A DNA stretch of 64,000 nt from Phycisphaerales bacterium (lineage in GTDB: Bacteria; Planctomycetota; Phycisphaerae; Phycisphaerales; UBA1924), in contig JAJDDK010000004.1 in the NCBI GenBank assembly GCA_029260345.1, positions 310,001 through 374,000 on the forward strand, in the 5' to 3' direction. The translations under genes and the position numbers were made by a program. Of the stretch, positions 3,797 through 62,645 are shown piece after piece. The notes below the pieces were generated by a model that did no database searches, was not told the origin of the DNA, and was given only the letters and a program-made list of their open reading frames with translations. Position 1 is the stretch's first letter. Every line of letters starts with the position of its first letter.

Positions 3797-5038
3797 TCAC
3801 CCCAACCCCAACAGCGGCGCCAGCGCCCGCAAGTTGCTCACCGCTGTCGCGATGTGATCGATCGCATAATCCACATCTTCTTCCGTTGTGGAGCGCCCTA
3901 ATGAAAGCCGCAGCGTCGCCAGCGCCATTTGTTCGGGCACGTCCATCGCGGTGAGCACGTGGCTCGGCTTCACCGCCATGCTCGAACAAGCGCTTGCGGC
4001 GGAGCAGGCGACGTCCGTCGCGACCATCATCAAGGCTTCGCCGTCCATGCGCTCGAACGAAATGTTCGTGATGTGCGGCAGGCGCTTGGCCTCAGCGCCG
4101 TTGATGTGTACGCCGTCGAGGCGCGAGAGCAGGCCTTTTTCAAGTCGTTCGCGCAGTTTTGCCAGACGTGGCGCCTCGTCGTCCATGTGTTCAGCGCAGA
4201 TTTCGCAGGCGACGCCGAGTCCGACAATGCCGGGGACGTTGAGTGTGCCGGAGCGCAAGCCGCGCTCTTGTCCGCCGCCTTCGGTCTGGGCGCGCAAAGC
4301 GCGCGTGCGCTCGTTGTCGCGGATGTACAGCGCGCCGACGCCCTTGGGGCCGTAAATCTTGTGCCCGGACATCGAGAGCAAGTCGAACCCATCGCGCGAT
4401 GCGTCCGTCGGCATTTTGCCCACCCACTGTGTCGCGTCCGTGTGCATCGCGACGTTGGCCTCGTTGCAGAGGCGCGCAATGGCGGGGACGTCGCTGATCA
4501 CGCCGGTTTCGTTGTTGGCCCACATCACGGAGACGAGGATCGTGTCGTCGCGTAGCGCGGCTTCGACCATCTCTGCCGTGATGGCGCCTTTGGGGCCGGG
4601 CGTGAGATAGGTGACATCGAAACCTTCGGCTTCGAGTGTGTGGGCCGGGTCGTAGACGGCTTTGTGTTCGGTCGCGGCGGTGATGATGTGGGGGCGGGAG
4701 GAGGAAGGGGAACTAATTTGAGCCCTCACCTGACCTCGCTGTGCTCGGCCATCCTCTCCCAGGGGGAGAGGGGGGCGCGCTATCCCCTTGACGGCGATGT
4801 TGTTGGATTCGGTGGCGCCGCTGGTGAAGATGATTTCGTGGGGAGATGCGTTGAGGAGAGCCGCGACTTGTTTGCGCGCGCTTTCAACGGCTTGGGCCGC
4901 TTCCCAGCCGAAGCGATGGTTGCGATTGCTTGGGTTGCCGGGGCTGCTGGATAGATACGGCAGCATCGCGCCTACGACGCGCGGGTCGCACGGCGTGCTG
5001 GCGGCGTGATCCATATAGATCGGCTGGTCGATGGGCAT
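3797..5038 (-). CDS. Cysteine desulfurase (NifS/IscS family) with an in-frame repeat insertion
   Basis: This PLP enzyme takes sulfur from cysteine for Fe-S clusters and thio-modifications. Family marks are YMDHAASTPCDP near the N-terminus, FTSGATESNN (71-80), the PLP lysine in SGHKIYGPKG, and the catalytic cysteine loop ASACSSMAVKPSH. The 413-residue length exceeds the usual ~385. The excess is a low-complexity stretch at about residues 88-114 (GIA-RPPLPLGEDGRAQRGQ...), exactly where relatives run straight from the lysine-glycine turn into HIITAATEHK. That stretch is encoded by a family A palindromic repeat (4722-4780) read in frame. The core is intact, so the enzyme is probably active. The start codon has no clear Shine-Dalgarno site. 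Confidence 0.93.
   Translation of the reverse strand: MPIDQPIYMDHAASTPCDPRVVGAMLPYLSSSPGNPSNRNHRFGWEAAQAVESARKQVAALLNASPHEIIFTSGATESNNIAVKGIARPPLPLGEDGRAQRGQVRAQISSPSSSRPHIITAATEHKAVYDPAHTLEAEGFDVTYLTPGPKGAITAEMVEAALRDDTILVSVMWANNETGVISDVPAIARLCNEANVAMHTDATQWVGKMPTDASRDGFDLLSMSGHKIYGPKGVGALYIRDNERTRALRAQTEGGGQERGLRSGTLNVPGIVGLGVACEICAEHMDDEAPRLAKLRERLEKGLLSRLDGVHINGAEAKRLPHITNISFERMDGEALMMVATDVACSAASACSSMAVKPSHVLTAMDVPEQMALATLRLSLGRSTTEEDVDYAIDHIATAVSNLRALAPLLGLG
4722..4780 (-). repeat. Family A palindromic repeat inside the cysteine desulfurase gene
   Basis: On the minus strand the copy reads CCCCTCTCCCCCTGGGAGAG, then an inner hairpin (GGCCGAGCACAGCGAGGTC) and GGTGAGGGC. This matches the intergenic copies at 22228-22341 and the copies in mqnC at 61868-62031. 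It stays in frame and adds PLPLGEDGRAQRGQVRA-type residues to the protein. Confidence 0.85.
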
Positions 5039-11136: not shown

Positions 11137-11322
11137 CCCCTCATCCGTCATCCCGACAAGTCGGGATGCCACCTTCTCCCGTTGGGAGAAGGGTTTGACT
11201 CCCTCTCCCTCCGGGAGAGGGCCGGGGTGAGGGGTGTTGGGCGCGCGATGATTCAGATGCGCTGTCCTTGAGAATGTGCGCTGTCTCGTGGCCTTGACTG
11301 AAGACAGTCAAGACCACGGCAC
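11137..11322. repeat. Composite repeat block, copy 1 (families A, A, D)
   Basis: It contains a family A element on the minus strand (11137-11193) and one on the plus strand (11201-11234). A linker with GTTGGGCGCGCGATGATT follows, then a family D hairpin (11287-11323: GTGGCCTTGACT paired with AGTCAAGACCACGG). Confidence 0.85.
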
Positions 11323-42895: not shown

Positions 42896-44437
42896 TTATC
42901 CGAGCAACTGCAGCACGTTCTGCGGCTGCGAGTTCGCCAGCGCCAGCACGTTCGTGCTCGAACTGACGAGAATCTGCGAGCGCGTCAGCGCTGCGGTCTC
43001 GGATGCAAAGTCAGCGTCGCGAATGGCGGATTCAGCCGCCGTCGTGTTCTCCAGCGAAACGCCGAGGCTGCGAATCGTCGCGCCCACGGTGTTCTTCTGG
43101 AAAGCGCCGAGTCGGCCGCGGAGACCGCTGATCTCCTTGATGGACTCGCGCACGACTTTCTGCGCCATCGTGAGGTCGCCATTCTCGACGTTCAGGTTCT
43201 TGCCTGCGGCGAGATCGGCCAGCGTGAAGGACGCCGCTCCGTCCACCGTTCGGCCAAGGCCGGAGATCGAGACGTTGTCGAGGCCGAGGCTCACCTTGCC
43301 GGCGATGTCCACGTTGGAGGCGAGCTGGAAGTCAGCGCCGCCGCCGGTGATGGTCAGCGCCTGAAGCGCGCCGAGGTTGCTGGCGTTGGGGCCGGCGCCA
43401 CCTGAGGCAAGATCGAGCTCAACCGACAGGAAGTCGGTGTTGATGCTTGCCTTGGTGCCCTTGGCGACAGCGATAATGCCGTTGATGACAGCGCCGACGT
43501 CCTGACCGTCATCGGTCAAGCCGTTCGAGGCGGCGACGGTGCTGAACAGTGTGTTCGTCGCAGCCGACGCGGTGTTTGCATCGCTGGCGGCGACGGCAAC
43601 GATGCCGGCGGTCGCGGCCGCCGTGTTCAGATCGCCATCGTCAATGATCTTCACGGAAACGAATTCCGCTGAACCGAAGTCGATGCTGTCGACGCGGAAG
43701 CCCGTGCCGCTCGCTGCGGCCGAAACACCGGTGACATCTTTGAAGCTGTTGATCGCGCCGACGATGTCAGCGACGGCCGTGCCCGACGCGAACGACAGTT
43801 CACGTGAGCCCTTGCTGCCGCCGACTTCGATGACGAACTGCGCATTGGACGAACTCAGATCGAGCGCGCCGCCCGTGGACAGGAAGTACGCCGCCTGCTG
43901 CGCGGACTGCGTCACGACGACATCGACGTCAAGCGTCTGGCCTTGCTCAAGCTTGGCGCCGTTGACTTTGAAGCTGGAAATTTCGGCGCTGACGTTGCTC
44001 GTCACGTAACCGAGATTGCCGTTGAGCAGCTTGGTGCCTTGGAAGCTCGTCGCGCCGGCGAGACGGTTGATCGTCTGCAGCACCGAATCAATCTGAAGTT
44101 GATTCGCTTCGCGCTCTTCCGTACTCAGGCCGGCGGTGTTCGCCGTGGTGGTGAGCAAGCCTTCAAGCTCAGTCAGCAAGGAAGAGATTTCCTGCAAACC
44201 GCCTTCAGCGATGTTCACGACTTGTTCGGCGCGCTCCGCATTGCTGATGGCGGCGCCCAGGCCCGCCTTCTCAGCGCGAAGGTTTTCCGACGCGATGAGT
44301 CCGGCCGGATCATCGGCGCCACGATTGATTTTCAGCCCCGTGCTAAGCCGTTCAAGCGATTGGCTCAGCGCGAGGTTGTTGCCGCCCAGCACGCGCTGGG
44401 CAATCAACGACTCGACGTTGGTGTTGATGCGGGTCAT
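42896..44437 (-). CDS. fliC1: Flagellin, paralogue 1
   Basis: The 513-residue filament subunit has the conserved D0-D1 ends: MTRINTNVESLIAQRVLGGN with SLERLSTGLKINRGADDPAG, and at the C-terminus LGVSLENTTAAESAIRDADF then NSQPQNVLQLLG. The central region (about residues 180-420) is variable and forms the outer filament domains. It shares clear similarity over its full length with paralogue 2. The gene is last of three in the cluster, has its own terminator and its own promoter candidate, and has a leader with TCACGGAGG over the ribosome binding site. Confidence 0.96.
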   Translation of the reverse strand: MTRINTNVESLIAQRVLGGNNLALSQSLERLSTGLKINRGADDPAGLIASENLRAEKAGLGAAISNAERAEQVVNIAEGGLQEISSLLTELEGLLTTTANTAGLSTEEREANQLQIDSVLQTINRLAGATSFQGTKLLNGNLGYVTSNVSAEISSFKVNGAKLEQGQTLDVDVVVTQSAQQAAYFLSTGGALDLSSSNAQFVIEVGGSKGSRELSFASGTAVADIVGAINSFKDVTGVSAAASGTGFRVDSIDFGSAEFVSVKIIDDGDLNTAAATAGIVAVAASDANTASAATNTLFSTVAASNGLTDDGQDVGAVINGIIAVAKGTKASINTDFLSVELDLASGGAGPNASNLGALQALTITGGGADFQLASNVDIAGKVSLGLDNVSISGLGRTVDGAASFTLADLAAGKNLNVENGDLTMAQKVVRESIKEISGLRGRLGAFQKNTVGATIRSLGVSLENTTAAESAIRDADFASETAALTRSQILVSSSTNVLALANSQPQNVLQLLG

Positions 44438-44440
44438 GAG

Positions 44441-44452
44441 ATCCTCCGTGAT
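44441..44452 (-). promoter_or_regulatory. Candidate CsrA-binding site over the Shine-Dalgarno of fliC1
   Basis: On the minus strand ATCACGGAGGAT ends four bases before the ATG. It fits the CsrA preference for a GGA core flanked by A/C and U. The same block occurs before the other two flagellin genes (46265-46276 and 48135-48146). Confidence 0.5.
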
Positions 44453-44500
44453 CTTTTTCTGTGACGCGGCGTGATTCGTCACCCGCGCCTTCGCCCAGCG

Positions 44501-44527
44501 TTATCGGGAGGTGCGTTTCGGGACTTC
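44501..44527 (-). promoter_or_regulatory. Candidate sigma-28 (FliA) promoter of fliC1
   Basis: On the minus strand the -10-like CCCGATAA (consensus GCCGATAA) is preceded, with an 11-base spacer, by a weak -35-like GAAGTCCC (AAGT in place of AAAGTTT). It lies about 65-90 bases upstream of the ATG. The -10 match is good and the -35 match is poor, so this is a candidate only. Confidence 0.4.
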
Positions 44528-44661
44528 AGCCCGACACCGCATCAACCCGCAAACTTTTTCCATCCGGACTATCCGGCCCACCCGTTTCGACCGTTACAAC
44601 GGGCGCCGGTGAGGCCAGAGTCAACGAACCGGAAATCACGTCTTATCGGGCGTCAAAAATG

Positions 44662-44692
44662 AAAAAACCCCGCGGGAATGCCCCGCGGGGTT
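44662..44692 (-). terminator. Rho-independent terminator after flagellin gene 2
   Basis: On the minus strand AACCCCGCGGGG pairs with CCCGCGGGGTT around CATT and is followed by a run of T. It is 37 bases after the flagellin 2 stop. Confidence 0.88.
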
Positions 44693-44728
44693 CGGAGTTC
44701 TCGGACTCAGATCAACCCGCCGTCGGGT

Positions 44729-46258
44729 TTAGCCGAGCAGCGCCAAGACGTTCTGCGGCTGGGCGTTGGCCAGCGAAAGAACGTTCGTCGCCGACTGCGA
44801 CAGAATCTGCGAACGGGTCAGAGCCGCCGTCTCGGACGCGAAGTCCGCATCACGGATGGCTGACTCGGCGGCCGTCGTGTTCTCAAGGGCGACGCCGAGG
44901 CTACGGATGGTCGCGCCGACGGTGTTCTTCTGGAACGCGCCGATGCGGCCGCGAAGACCGCTGATGTCCTTGATCGCCTGACCAACGACATCCTGCGCCA
45001 CGCTGAGGTCGCCGTCGATGACGGACAGACCCTTACCGGAGCTCAGATCGGACAGCGTGTAGTTCGTGCCGCCGCTGCTGGTCTTGCCAACGTTGCGAAC
45101 GGCCACGTTGTCGATGCCGATGCTCACCTTGCCGGCGATATCAACGTTGGAAGCGAGCTGGAAGTCAGCGCCGCCGCCCTCAATCGTGAAGGCATTGATG
45201 TTGCCGGGCGTTGTGGCGCCGGTCGCGGTCAAATCGATATCCACAGACAGGAAGTCGGTGGAGATGCTGGCCTTGGTGCCATTGGTCGTGGCGACCACAC
45301 CGTTGATCGTGGCGCCAACGTCCTGGCCGTCGTCCTTGACACCGTTGGTGGCGGCGCCAGCGCTGAACAGGGTGTTCGTCGCAGCCGACGCGACGGCGGT
45401 GTCGCTTCCGGCAAGGCCGACAATGCCGGCGGTCGCGACGGCCGTGTTCAGGTCGCCGTCATCGACAACCTTGACCGAGACGAATTCGTTTGAGCCGTAC
45501 TCGACGCTGTCAACGCGGAAGCCCGTGCCGGACGCCGCGGCGGAAACGCCGGTGACGTCGCTGAAGCTGTTGATTGCGGCGACGATGTCAGCCACGGCCG
45601 TGCCCGACGCGAACGAAAGCTCGCGTGAACCCTTGGCGCCGCCCACATCGAGGACAAACTGCGCATTGGCGGAGCTCAGGTCCAGGGCGCCGCCCGTGGA
45701 CAGGAAGAAACCGGCCTGCTGCGCGGACTGCGTGACGAGGATGTCCACGTCGCGCGTCTGGCCGAACTCGAGCTTGGCGCCGTTGATCTTGAAGCTGGAA
45801 ACTTCAGTGTCCACACCGGTGACTTCGTAACCGAAGTTGCCGTTGAGCAGCTTGCTGCCCTGGAAGCTGGTGGACTCCGAGACGCGGTCAATTGTCTGAA
45901 GGATGGAGTCAATCTGAAGCTGGTTGGCTTCTTTTTCCTCAGCGCTCAGGCCGGCGGTGTTCGCCGACGCGGTGATCAGGCCTTCGAGTTCCGTGAGGAG
46001 GCCCGACACTTCCTGAAGACCACCTTCAGCAATGTTCACGACTTGCTCGGCGCGCTCGGCGTTGCCGATGGCGGCGCCGAGGCTGACCTTCTCAGCGCGA
46101 AGGTTCTGTGATGCGATCAGACCGGCCGGATCATCGCCGCCGCGATTGATCTTCAAACCGGTGCTCAAACGCTCAAGAGCCTGGCCGAGCTGCTTGTTGT
46201 TCTGTCCAAGGATCCGCTGTGCGAGCAGAGACTGGACGTTTGTGTTGATCCGACTCAT
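44729..46258 (-). CDS. fliC2: Flagellin, paralogue 2
   Basis: The 509-residue flagellin has MSRINTNVQSLLAQRILGQN and SLERLSTGLKINRG-type (here ALERLSTGLKINRGGDDPAG) at its start and LGVALENTTAAESAIRDADF then NAQPQNVLALLG at its end. It aligns with paralogue 1 along its length apart from the central region, so the two arose by duplication. It has its own terminator and therefore a separate transcript is likely. The start ATG at 46258 follows CACGGAGGGA. Confidence 0.95.
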   Translation of the reverse strand: MSRINTNVQSLLAQRILGQNNKQLGQALERLSTGLKINRGGDDPAGLIASQNLRAEKVSLGAAIGNAERAEQVVNIAEGGLQEVSGLLTELEGLITASANTAGLSAEEKEANQLQIDSILQTIDRVSESTSFQGSKLLNGNFGYEVTGVDTEVSSFKINGAKLEFGQTRDVDILVTQSAQQAGFFLSTGGALDLSSANAQFVLDVGGAKGSRELSFASGTAVADIVAAINSFSDVTGVSAAASGTGFRVDSVEYGSNEFVSVKVVDDGDLNTAVATAGIVGLAGSDTAVASAATNTLFSAGAATNGVKDDGQDVGATINGVVATTNGTKASISTDFLSVDIDLTATGATTPGNINAFTIEGGGADFQLASNVDIAGKVSIGIDNVAVRNVGKTSSGGTNYTLSDLSSGKGLSVIDGDLSVAQDVVGQAIKDISGLRGRIGAFQKNTVGATIRSLGVALENTTAAESAIRDADFASETAALTRSQILSQSATNVLSLANAQPQNVLALLG

Positions 46259-46264
46259 TCCGAT

Positions 46265-46276
46265 TCCCTCCGTGAA
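46265..46276 (-). promoter_or_regulatory. Candidate CsrA-binding site over the Shine-Dalgarno of fliC2
   Basis: On the minus strand TTCACGGAGGGA lies six bases before the ATG at 46258. It shares TCACGGAGG with the leaders of flagellins 1 and 3. Confidence 0.5.
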
Positions 46277-46478
46277 AGTCGTACCGGGCGTTGCCGCGAT
46301 GCACTCCGTTGTGAACCGCGACAAACGTCGGGCGCCTGACCAATTGTGTCAGGCCGTCCCCGGCGCCCGGTCCACGCGGACACGATGCGCCGCGAGTCTC
46401 GATCGACGGGACATGACACTCAGTTCACGAGGGGAAAGTGTTTATTGACGCGATCCACGCTATAGGACGCGCACAGAC

Positions 46479-46509
46479 GGACCCCCGTCGGGATAACCAA
46501 CGGGGGTCC
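46479..46509. terminator. Strong hairpin after flagellin gene 3, no T tract
   Basis: GGACCCCCGT (46479-46488) pairs with ACGGGGGTCC (46500-46509) over an 11-base loop. It lies 53 bases after the flagellin 3 stop. The lack of a T run on either side makes it an atypical terminator or an mRNA-stabilising end. Confidence 0.6.
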
Positions 46510-46561
46510 GGAAAAAGAGCCGTGTTATATGGATGCGTGTGTCTACGAACGCGCGTTTCAT

Positions 46562-48130
46562 TTACCCGAGGAGTTGCAACACGGACTGCGCCGACGCATT
46601 GGCCGTCGCCAGCACACTCGTGCCTGCATTGGTCAGGATTTGCGCTCGTGTCAGAGCACTGGTTTCCGCCGCAAAGTCCGCATCACGAATCTGCGAGTTG
46701 GCCGACGTGACGTTCTCAAGCGCCGATTCCAGCGAACGGATGTTCGTCTGGAGGGTGTTGCGTTCGAACGCGCCGAGGCGGCCGCGCAGCGTCGAGATTT
46801 CATCGATCGACGTTTCCAGAATGCGGCTGGCGCTGATGAAGTTCTTGGTCGCCAGCGAATTGGCGCCTCCGGACTTCAGGCTGGACAGGAACTGGAATTC
46901 CGTGCCCCCTGCCGCGAGGTTGTTGAGTGTGCCGCCAAGGCGCGATGACGCGATGGACTGCACACCGACGTTGATCTGCTGCGAGGCGTTCACTTCCGGG
47001 CCAAGCTGATACAGCGAGCCGCCGCCGGTGATATGGAACGTGGACGGCGTGCCGCTGACCGCCGTGGCAAATGCCTCGTCAAGGAGTAGATCAACATCAA
47101 GTTCGGACGTCTTGCTTGCGATCGACAAACCGCGCCCGGTGCCGAGCGCGCCATTGATCAGCGCGACGACGTCCTTGCCGGTGTCGCGCGTCGCGGATTC
47201 GACGATGGCGCCATTGGTGTAATCCAGCGTCGCAGGATCGCCGTTGTCAATGAGGCGCACAAGTCCGTTGTCCAGGAACCCGCCGGTCGAGCCGACGCGT
47301 TCAACTGAGACAAACGGCTTTGAACCGTATTCAGACGAAAAGATGCGAATGCCGGAGGTCACATCGGCGCCACTGACGCGCTCGGCGCGCACGCCGGTCG
47401 CCGCGCCAACCGCGTTGATCGCGGTCACCATTTCATCGAGCGTTGTGCCGCTGGTGAACGTGAGTTCCTGAATGCCGGCGCCGCCGGCGACGCGCACGGT
47501 CACGGTCGACAGCAACTGACCATCAACACCCGGGGGGTTGAAGGGCGGGTTGCTGCTGAAGTCGCCTCGCAGGTAGAGCGACGCCTGCTGCGCGGACTCG
47601 ATGACCTCAACATCCACTTGAATGTTGCTTCGTTCGAGGAACTGCGCGCCGTTGACGGTCGCTTTGGTGACTTCGGTCGCGTCCACGCCGCTGAGCGTGT
47701 AGCCGAGTTCACCATTGAGCAGCTTCAGGTCCGCGAAGGAGGCGGTGTTGCTGATGCGGGTGATCGAATCGATCGCCGAGTCGATCTGCCGCTGGTTGGC
47801 GTCAAGCTCCGCGGCGGAGAAGGCGCCGCTGTTGGCCGCTTCAACGACGAGCGATTTGATCGAGTTGAGCAGTTCGGACACTTCCGTCAACGACCCTTCG
47901 GTCGTTGCAATGACGCTGCTGGCTCGTTCGGCGTTCTTCACGCCTTGCTCGATGCCGCGCAGGTTTGAGCGCAAACGCTCGGAAGTGATCAAACCGGCCG
48001 GATCATCGGCGCCTCGGTTGAGTCGCAAACCGGTCGAGAGGCGCTGGAGGCGCACACCGAGGTCGGCATTGGACGTAGCGAGGTTTCGCTGGGCGATCAG
48101 GCTGGCGATGTTCGTATTGATCCTCGCCAT
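46562..48130 (-). CDS. fliC3: Flagellin, paralogue 3 (divergent)
   Basis: The 522-residue protein has MARINTNIASLIAQRNLATS and LQRLSTGLRLNRGADDPAG at the N-terminus and the LESALENVTSANSQIRDADF and NASAQSVLQLLG ends. It is clearly a flagellin but more distant from paralogues 1 and 2 than they are from each other, and its central domain has a different sequence. Such paralogues may form a different part of the filament, for example the base. The gene is first of the three after csrA, which it follows by about 107 bases. Confidence 0.94.
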   Translation of the reverse strand: MARINTNIASLIAQRNLATSNADLGVRLQRLSTGLRLNRGADDPAGLITSERLRSNLRGIEQGVKNAERASSVIATTEGSLTEVSELLNSIKSLVVEAANSGAFSAAELDANQRQIDSAIDSITRISNTASFADLKLLNGELGYTLSGVDATEVTKATVNGAQFLERSNIQVDVEVIESAQQASLYLRGDFSSNPPFNPPGVDGQLLSTVTVRVAGGAGIQELTFTSGTTLDEMVTAINAVGAATGVRAERVSGADVTSGIRIFSSEYGSKPFVSVERVGSTGGFLDNGLVRLIDNGDPATLDYTNGAIVESATRDTGKDVVALINGALGTGRGLSIASKTSELDVDLLLDEAFATAVSGTPSTFHITGGGSLYQLGPEVNASQQINVGVQSIASSRLGGTLNNLAAGGTEFQFLSSLKSGGANSLATKNFISASRILETSIDEISTLRGRLGAFERNTLQTNIRSLESALENVTSANSQIRDADFAAETSALTRAQILTNAGTSVLATANASAQSVLQLLG

Positions 48131-60851: not shown

Positions 60852-61061
60852 GGTCGGCCTCCGCCAAAAGAAGTGCCCGCCGCCGCACAAGGGCGTCGCG
60901 CATCCGGCGCTATCGGTCGATCGGGAACCCCGGTCAAGGCCAGATCGGCGGCAATTCGAAATCTGGACCCCCGCCCCCGCAGCGATACACTCATTTCCCT
61001 TCGGAAACCGACTTCGACGCGCCGGACCGGCGATCAACGCTGAGAGAAAGCCCGCATCTTC

Positions 61062-62645
61062 ATGCCCGCCGGATACACGCCCCCGCCAACCAGCCCCGCC
61101 AGCGACGCCCTCGACCCGGGCCTGCTGCGCGACGTCGCCATCGGCGCGGCACGCCTCACCGGCGAACAGGCGCTGGACCTCTACACGCGCACGCCGCTGT
61201 TTGAACTCGGCCGCTGGGCCGACGCCCGCTGCCGATCGCTGCATGGCGACCACCTGCGCACGTACGTGATTGATCGCAACATCAACTACACGAATGTGTG
61301 CAGTGCCAAGTGCACGTTCTGCGCCTTCCGGCGCGACGGTGACGAGGCCGACGCCTACACACTCGAATACGAACAGCTTTACGAGAAGGTTGCCGAGCTC
61401 CAGGCCATCGGCGGCACGCAGATCCTCATGCAGGGCGGAATGAACCCCGAACTGCCACTGGACTGGTATCTGGAACTGCTGCGGGGCCTCAAAGAGCGCT
61501 TCCCCGACATTCACGTGCACGGCTTCTCGCCGCCGGAATTCATCGAGTTCGTACGATTCTTCGATCCGCCCGGCGCCACGCTCGAAGACAAACTCCGCTG
61601 GGTGATGGTGCGGCTGAAAGAAGCTGGCCTCGATTCATTGCCCGGCGGTGGTGGTGAGATCTTCGCGTATCCCGTCCGCCGCAAGATCGGCCTCGGCAAG
61701 TGCACGGCGGAAGACTGGCTGACGACGATGTACGTCGCGCACACGCTCGGCATGTTCACGAGCGCGACGATGATGTTCGGCCACATCGAAGGCGCCGCCG
61801 ACCGCGTGCACCACATGCTCCTCGTCCGCGAATGGCAAGACCGAATCCTCCGGGAGGCCTCCGCCTCCCTCCCCCGCCCCGCGGGTGAGGGCCCGGGTGA
61901 GGGTTCCGAAGCTCCCTCTCCCCCTGGGAGAGGGTGTCATGGCGCAGCCATGACGGGTGAGGGCTCCGGTCTCCCCTCTCCCCCTGGGAGAGGGTGGCCG
62001 AGCGGAGCGAGGTCGGGTGAGGGCCAAATCAATCCCCATTCCCCCTCCCCCCACGGCCACTACAAAGCCTTCATCTCCTGGCCCTTCCAGCGCGAAAACA
62101 CCCCCCTCGGCCGCCTCAAGGAATGGGGCCAGCGCGAAGGCGAACTCGACCAGCCCTTCCCCGGCGACCTCGCCGCCTCCATTCGCGGCGACGGCGACCC
62201 CAAAGCCCACCCGGAATTCGGACGGCGCCTGCGCATGGCCGGCGCAACCGACTACCTGCGCACGCAGGCCCTCTCGCGCCTGGTCCTCGACAACGTCTAT
62301 TCGATCGGCGCTTCGTGGGTGACCATGGGCCCCCACATCGGACAGACCGCGCTCTTCTTCGGCGCCAACGACATGGGCTCCGTGATGATGGAAGAGAACG
62401 TCGTCAGCAGCGCCGGCACGACCTACTGCCTGGACGAAGCTGTCCTTTGCCGCCTCATCCGCACCGCCGGCTTCACCCCGGCCCAGCGCGACAACGTCTA
62501 CGACATCCTCCGCGTGCATGACACCACCGCCAGCCCCGACCTGAAAGTCAACGACTGGTCCGAGCACCGCACCAAGCGCCTGCACATCGAGAGCAAGGCG
62601 GAGGTTGAGGCGAAGGTGGCGCTGAGTGTGACGGCGGGCACGTAG
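61062..62645 (+). CDS. mqnC: Cyclic dehypoxanthinyl futalosine synthase MqnC with an in-frame repeat insertion
   Basis: This radical SAM enzyme cyclises dehypoxanthine futalosine in menaquinone synthesis. It has the SAM cluster motif INYTNVCSAKCTFCAFRR (CxxxCxxC), GGTQILMQGGMNPELPLDWY, the family signature GLDSLPGGGGEIFAYPVRRK, FISWPFQRENTPLG and FGANDMGSVMMEENVVSSAG. The 527-residue length exceeds the usual ~380. The excess includes about 65 residues at 267-330 encoded by three tandem family A repeats (61868-62031), placed just before GHYKAFISWPFQ where relatives have a short turn. The core motifs are intact. mqnD is at 12265. Confidence 0.93.
   Translation: MPAGYTPPPTSPASDALDPGLLRDVAIGAARLTGEQALDLYTRTPLFELGRWADARCRSLHGDHLRTYVIDRNINYTNVCSAKCTFCAFRRDGDEADAYTLEYEQLYEKVAELQAIGGTQILMQGGMNPELPLDWYLELLRGLKERFPDIHVHGFSPPEFIEFVRFFDPPGATLEDKLRWVMVRLKEAGLDSLPGGGGEIFAYPVRRKIGLGKCTAEDWLTTMYVAHTLGMFTSATMMFGHIEGAADRVHHMLLVREWQDRILREASASLPRPAGEGPGEGSEAPSPPGRGCHGAAMTGEGSGLPSPPGRGWPSGARSGEGQINPHSPSPHGHYKAFISWPFQRENTPLGRLKEWGQREGELDQPFPGDLAASIRGDGDPKAHPEFGRRLRMAGATDYLRTQALSRLVLDNVYSIGASWVTMGPHIGQTALFFGANDMGSVMMEENVVSSAGTTYCLDEAVLCRLIRTAGFTPAQRDNVYDILRVHDTTASPDLKVNDWSEHRTKRLHIESKAEVEAKVALSVTAGT
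61868..62031 (+). repeat. Three tandem family A palindromic repeats inside mqnC
   Basis: The copies are at about 61868-61905 (variant with CCCCGCGGGTGAGGG), 61911-61963 (CCCTCTCCCCCTGGGAGAGG, inner hairpin TCATGGCGCAGCCATGA) and 61972-62022 (inner hairpin GGCCGAGCGGAGCGAGGTC). All are in the gene's frame without stops. Confidence 0.88.

Follow-up and report, generated by a model that had tools for sequence, protein, structure and literature searches.

The window analysed here, a 64,000-nucleotide stretch of a Phycisphaerales bacterium genome, carries on its minus strand (positions 3797–5038) a gene for an IscS/NifS-type cysteine desulfurase of 413 residues, in which profile searches and alignment place an insert at residues 89–116. 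The encoded protein scores 254 bits against Pfam Aminotran_5 and 470 bits, over two stretches, against NCBIfam PRK14012, below the equivalog cut-off of that model (548). Alignment to the mitochondrial cysteine desulfurase chain (5usr) is interrupted at 88/113. A structure prediction made from 3 sequences gave a pLDDT of 42.6 and was not used; a scan of viral contigs returned 3 homologues only.

The insert contains a repeat core of 50 nt (4723–4772, minus strand; residues 89–106), a copy of what we call family A, the hairpin-loop form of a triplex repeat. BLAST similarity to other copies extends over 81 nt (4693–4773, minus strand; residues 89–116), about 60 nt of which are clearly common to the aligned copies; compared by eye with the copy at 61974–62023, the core differs at 4 of 50 positions. 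The proposal from the sequence-only reading that a repeat lies in frame between two conserved blocks is thus borne out, and its bounds (residues 88–114; 4690–4785) were off by no more than a few residues or some dozen bases. Among the 59 relatives with a match, 29 were inspected at this position; they hold a linker of 14–18 residues with a sequence unlike the insert, so the similar insert in relatives that would have told against an origin from the repeat was not found. E. coli IscS has 8 residues here and the present protein 29; the insert therefore stands in for a variable linker, with a net gain of about 15 residues, and is not a clean addition. Directly after the repeat tail there is one extra T (4721–4722, minus strand) relative to five other copies, which could be a frame-restoring change. 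RNA folding showed no strong signal in the stretch 4690–4785, with z-scores of −0.78 and −1.55 for the two strands, compared with −3.38 and −2.96 for two other copies.

A further NifS-like gene is present in the genome (contig C7, 85795–87015; positions 296–1516 of its fetched locus, L329), so the desulfurase with the insert need not be essential, and the gene might be a decaying pseudogene in which an in-frame copy survives by luck. We regard this as very unlikely: the frame is open, a codon signal is present on both sides of the insert (0.47 and 0.33), and the SGHK lysine, TEHK histidine and SACSS cysteine, which we take to be the key residues of the enzyme, are all present as judged by eye; moreover NadA and MutS, which carry such inserts in frames without stops, are single copies in this genome according to a Pfam search. 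The second NifS-like gene has an in-frame insert of its own, of about 24 residues, which carries a different palindrome (...CCCACGCGGACGTGGGCATGCCACC...) with the core GTGGGCATGCCACC; this core has 4 matches in the window (0.02 expected) and occurs in 12 of 329 fetched loci, some of them overlapping.

Read directly on the minus strand, the desulfurase copy opens with a pyrimidine arm, CCCTCTCCC (4764–4772), which a 3-nt loop separates from a purine arm, GGGAGAGGA (4752–4760); together these form hairpin 1. A second loop of 20 nt (4732–4751), itself an imperfect hairpin, leads to a third-strand tail, AGGTGAGGG (4723–4731), the mirror of the purine arm. By eye, tail and arm give allowed purine-motif triplets at 9 of 9 positions, with one terminal Watson–Crick mismatch (C/A) in the hairpin: the last A of GGGAGAGGA is unpaired with the C of the other arm and matches the A with which the tail begins. 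The hairpin within the second loop is supported over the 61 distinct 20-nt loops, in which pairing is possible in 407 of 488 cells, against a shuffle mean of 325.8 and a maximum of 345, with two of its eight pairs forming in only 35–36 of the 61 loops; it may be REP-like.

Bacterial genomes have been known to contain triplex repeats for about 25 years. The closest described class is that of the purine-motif intrastrand-triplex repeats (TM/TMECO/PIT; Holder et al. 2015, PMC4666352, with Hoyne and Maher cited therein), for which oligonucleotides of the E. coli sequences form a stable triplex in vitro by CD and NMR and a polymerase stops in front of the motif. The short copy at 11201–11233 of the window (CCCTCTCCC-TCC-GGGAGAGGG-CCG-GGGTGAGGG; E. 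coli no. 1, for comparison, is CCCTCTCCCTGTGGGAGAGGGCCGGGGTGAGGGC) has the layout of the E. coli type B elements, whose loop is CCG, and by eye fits the published class II pattern CCCTCNCCC N3-6 GGGNGAGGG N3 GGGNGAGGG. The desulfurase copy departs from that pattern in its 20-nt second loop and its GGGAGAGGA arm, while its tail and arm show, by eye, the purine-motif triplets of the class. Inverted pairs, described for E. coli as A+B pairs, are also found here, many copies being inverted neighbours as judged by eye. Two differences stand out. The second loop is 3 nt long in 26 of 149 copies of the present genome and at least 12 nt in 119, beyond the 1–6 nt to which loops were limited in the search of Holder et al. 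Secondly, the E. coli copies are 'always located intergenically', a property of those copies and not part of the definition of the class, whereas several copies here lie inside genes, 11 of which have conserved sequence on both sides of the copy.

Three patterns describing the family gave 129, 149 and 131 matches in the 3.4-Mb genome, against 4, 0 and 0 for the same patterns reversed, and at least 149 elements lie in the stretches fetched from it, which cover contigs C6–C8 in part. A 47-position hairpin-loop pattern has 4 matches in the window where 0.00 are expected from shuffles. When the genome and 60 relatives were searched, 23 of the 61 gave matches, in some cases just one or a few; the reversed pattern matched once. 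The window holds other repeated sequence too: a second dispersed repeat of the CTCTGCGGCCTTTGCGTCTCTGCGGTGAAT type, with its inverse, occurs at least nine times between 24112 and 42106, and at 42896–48034 there are three to four tandem paralogous stretches spaced by about 1.8 kb, with 72–83% identity in the listed stretches, possibly a duplicated gene array.

For the survey of internal copies, 66 stretches were fetched around 144 listed places and the stop-free ORFs spanning copies (20 proteins) were scanned with Pfam. At least 11 genes have conserved sequence on both sides of an insert: those for the cysteine desulfurase, Asparaginase_2, a CofH/MqnC-like radical SAM protein, NadA, a short-chain dehydrogenase, MutS, RarA/MgsA, a class I/II aminotransferase (for which Pfam gives two matched stretches and coordinates for one, so that the other side is inferred), RlmN, a ThiF-family protein and a ThiD2–ThiE fusion. 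The sequence-only reading had counted the desulfurase as a second gene of this kind; that it is not the sole one holds, and the number proves too small. The CofH/MqnC-like gene lies in the window (ORF 61044–62642, plus strand) and has an in-frame copy at 61914–61963 and a second, tandem copy at 61974–62023, both on the plus strand. Structure alignments are interrupted at positions matching the inserts in NadA (query 180/285 vs chain 137/147), MutS (432/493 vs 717/714), RarA (252/323 vs 218/245) and, twice, the ThiF-family protein (170/273 and 315/398 vs 114/121 and 163/166). What the in-gene copies have in common is that they are in frame and lie in a linker or between conserved blocks, and in the ThiD2–ThiE fusion and RlmN the insert falls between domains.

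Copies 5′ of the EF-P, DCC1-like and NuoF domains probably precede the real start and so do not figure among the internal ones, and an RF-1-domain protein and an alpha/beta hydrolase were left out of the 11, having a Pfam match on one side only. Pfam found nothing in the spanning ORFs of L213, L250, L264 and L219 or in the ORF on the plus strand of L254; L258, in frame by both of the codon-usage runs described below, lies outside the Pfam-scanned set.

Codon usage was scored over 180 nt on each side of every cluster of copies. A first run found 9 clusters in frame and 0 broken among 88; with a codon model trained on the fetched loci (87 clusters), the in-frame and broken counts were 9 and 0 at a threshold of 0.25, 11 and 0 at 0.15, and 12 and 1 at 0.05, the sole broken cluster being the weak L237. 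Most clusters have a coding signal on one side or none. In the one control genome, G048, from the same order and with 100 matches (68 clusters in 60 stretches), the corresponding counts were 0 and 3, 1 and 5, and 4 and 8, which fit copies lying between genes, as expected; at the threshold of 0.15 the difference (11/0 vs 1/5) gives a Fisher value of about 0.001, calculated by hand. Because of these G048 counts, the in-gene copies are a feature of the present genome and not of the repeat family, as far as one control genome shows.

These counts bear on the possibility that the inserts are skipped or removed, by translational bypass or by excision from RNA or DNA, and are absent from the proteins. 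Palindromic inserts in yeast mitochondria are bypassed during translation, and the inserts found here sit in core enzymes. Skipping, though, would not require a kept reading frame, and where coding signal flanks a cluster on both sides in one strand, the frame is kept and free of stops in 11 of 11 cases at the threshold of 0.15 and in 12 of 13 at 0.05; we consider skipping exceedingly improbable. Another possibility is that selection favours the element as a regulatory or terminator signal, with the in-gene copies tuning expression; REPs, for comparison, are believed in many cases to work at the RNA level (Di Nocera et al. 2013). It is highly improbable nonetheless, as the in-gene copies occur in both orientations and use several frames, and PIT motifs had neither promoter nor terminator activity in an earlier study, according to Holder et al. 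(2015).

The same spread over frames and orientations runs against the explanation first offered for the survival of the element in coding sequence, namely that its sense reading avoids stops. The repeat tail carries a TGA in one sense frame, and open frames are slightly fewer than in dinucleotide shuffles, both for hairpin-loop copies (4.28 of 6 stop-free frames per copy, n=119, vs 4.72) and for short-loop copies (4.90 of 6, n=30, vs 5.60); the idea of an element rich in open frames was rejected accordingly.

If the tail lies antiparallel to the purine arm in a purine-motif triplex, position i of the arm should match position 10−i of the tail. This expectation was compared with elements from at least 80 loci of named genomes belonging to many phyla; L110 (match too near the end of the locus) and L120 (nested duplicate) were left out, which gave 116 elements in 79 loci with purines left free at arm positions 7–9 and tail positions 1–3. 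The combinations are GGG/GGG in 70, AGG/GGA in 33, GGA/AGG in 7 and GAG/GAG in 1, a total of 111 concordant elements, with 5 discordant. Mutual information is 0.836 for r7–t3, 0.254 for r9–t1 and 0.031 for r8–t2 (r, arm; t, tail), and at most 0.011 for the six off-register pairs. The 5 mismatching elements compare with a mean of 62 and a minimum of 46 in 10,000 shuffles of the tails, and with one element per locus and type the mismatches are 5 of 90 against a shuffle minimum of 34; related copies descend from one another and were counted without a tree, so that these numbers overstate their independence.

In the present genome, 119 of 149 copies are concordant at the same positions (r7–t3 0.818 bits, r9–t1 0.222 bits, off-register pairs up to 0.089), and arm–tail mismatches are similarly frequent in the in-gene loci (4 of 22 elements) and elsewhere (26 of 127), so that preservation is alike. 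Sixteen of the 30 discordant copies belong to the ACC/GGT/GGG type, in which a T at r9 faces G; the changes in the other 14 are mixed, and three of these copies have one of two hairpin loops found otherwise with GGG/GGG. With the middle positions freed, 73 matches copied by hand from a 392-genome sample of the phylum show, at r4–t6, AA in 56, GG in 12 and discordance in 5. At r5–t5 the signal in that sample is weak (AA 2, discordant 4), and r8–t2 has no support either in the present genome, where all four copies with A at r8 have G at t2, or in the 116-element set (1 concordant, 3 discordant). Arm–tail covariation in the register of a triplex is thus present at two positions across phyla and at a third within the phylum.

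A hairpin might be all that matters, with the likeness of arm and tail going back to a small number of ancestral subfamilies (one of G type, one of A type) in which the two were inherited together. Such a history would account for the fact that the A-type copies listed in the present genome have a hairpin loop (the pattern requires at least 10 nt), for similar loops on many A-type copies from Rhizobiales and Xanthomonas, for the lack of covariation at r8–t2 and for the 30 discordant copies of the genome's 149. It sits poorly with the way in which types and loops combine: four second-loop hairpins of the genome each occur with two concordant types, which are GGG/GGG and AGG/GGA for three of them and GGA/AGG and AGG/GGA for the remaining one. 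AGG/GGA is also found with short loops (8 elements in seven organisms), GGA/AGG occurs in seven organisms (labelled SAR324, Sphingomonas, Rhodanobacter, deltaproteobacterium, Elusimicrobia, Bacteroidia and Aquimarina), and short-loop elements taken alone mismatch in 3 of 60 cases against a shuffle minimum of 17. Furthermore, r4 equals t6 in 17 of the 73 phylum matches despite a Watson–Crick mismatch at r4 (15 are G against A, mostly from one subfamily with the CCCTCGCCC arm), and in 2 more with a G–T wobble partner. We therefore consider a role for the hairpin alone unlikely. The CCCTCGCCC-arm subfamily (G343, G272, G365, G410 and others) keeps the G-against-A mismatch while arm and tail agree; for E. 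coli, Holder et al. (2015) describe 'mm' types that have one mismatch. Taken together, the way in which the copies vary suggests that the three-stranded fold matters in living cells.

The reading we prefer, and consider probable, is that the insert is a non-autonomous, REP/MITE-like repeat of the PIT/TM class with a hairpin-tethered third strand, which lies in frame in a tolerant linker and is translated, and whose fold drives its spread; our confidence goes no higher because of the discordant copies in the genome itself and because the third covarying position rests on one phylum. In the proposed course of events, the repeat would spread as a non-autonomous mobile element. When single-stranded, it could form hairpin 1 and lay its tail back along the purine arm through reverse-Hoogsteen pairing; since arm and tail covary in the register of a triplex, selection presumably acts on the triplex formed by single-stranded DNA, whether in copying or in replication. 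Copies able to fold would be those that spread, the copying machinery selecting the fold. The desulfurase copy would have landed in a tolerant linker and taken the place of the usual one with the frame kept, and the simplest view is that the insert is translated and the enzyme works with it; at least ten more conserved genes of the genome would have had a like history. Inside genes, copies would survive only where the frame is kept and the site is tolerant, as short insertions rich in Pro/Gly/Arg, and the insert of the desulfurase would be one such passenger.

With respect to mobilisation, mobilisation by a RAYT was considered and set aside: a search with the Pfam model for Y1_Tnp (PF01797), the only transposase model used, found three loci, none flanked by a family A hairpin within about 1.5 kb on each side. 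One of them (L047, 1300–1980), a RAYT-like gene, has its own palindrome on both sides (CCACGAGT...ACTCGTGG type, by eye), unlike family A. The MutS insert (L204, 1281–1500) and the ThiF insert (L253, 1777–1905) share about 145 nt at 71% identity, partly family A, and the ThiF insert has matches of at least 60 nt in 28 of the 66 loci, itself included; what moves may therefore be a composite of larger size.

Palindromes that lie in frame within genes have precedents in the Rickettsia palindromic elements (RPEs; MITE review, PMC10969869) and in intragenic REPs (PMC3733652). Like the copies described here, RPEs are palindromic repeats in frame in unrelated genes; compared by description only, they differ in being about 150 bp long, and the available part of that report mentions no triplex layout. 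The GTAG/CGTC REPs, which bear an unpaired GTAG or CGTC tag at one end, are likewise short palindromes inside ORFs, many in genes of DNA synthesis and repair (here MutS and RarA), and for the CGTC REPs, too, there is apparently no transposase of their own (Di Nocera et al. 2013); compared by description only, family A differs in being defined by its arm–arm–tail layout. Three things are apparently new, namely that the triplex class occurs inside genes at such a scale, that its third strand can be tethered by a hairpin, and that this strand covaries with the arm: among the papers listed by searches of an open-access collection, none reported covariation in triplex repeats, in-gene copies or the hairpin-tethered form, and the words covari- and compensat- are absent from the text of Holder et al. 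(2015).

The triplex has hitherto been without proof in the cell, and in vivo DMS footprinting showed no protection (Holder et al. 2015, PMC4666352). Third-strand covariation offers independent, evolutionary evidence for a triplex in vivo, which requires no chemistry and pinpoints the exact changes. More tentatively, and as a reading that may well prove wrong, the three-stranded fold, formed on single-stranded DNA in vivo, could be the selected form of a very widespread bacterial mobile repeat and the one that the copying enzyme recognises, the switches from C-G*G to T-A*A across many phyla being its footprint and the hairpin-tethered form an unrecorded branch that has spread, in the present lineage, into the coding sequence of a considerable number of core proteins. 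The insertions in genes show how a triplex repeat can lengthen bacterial core enzymes, and they supply natural test proteins.
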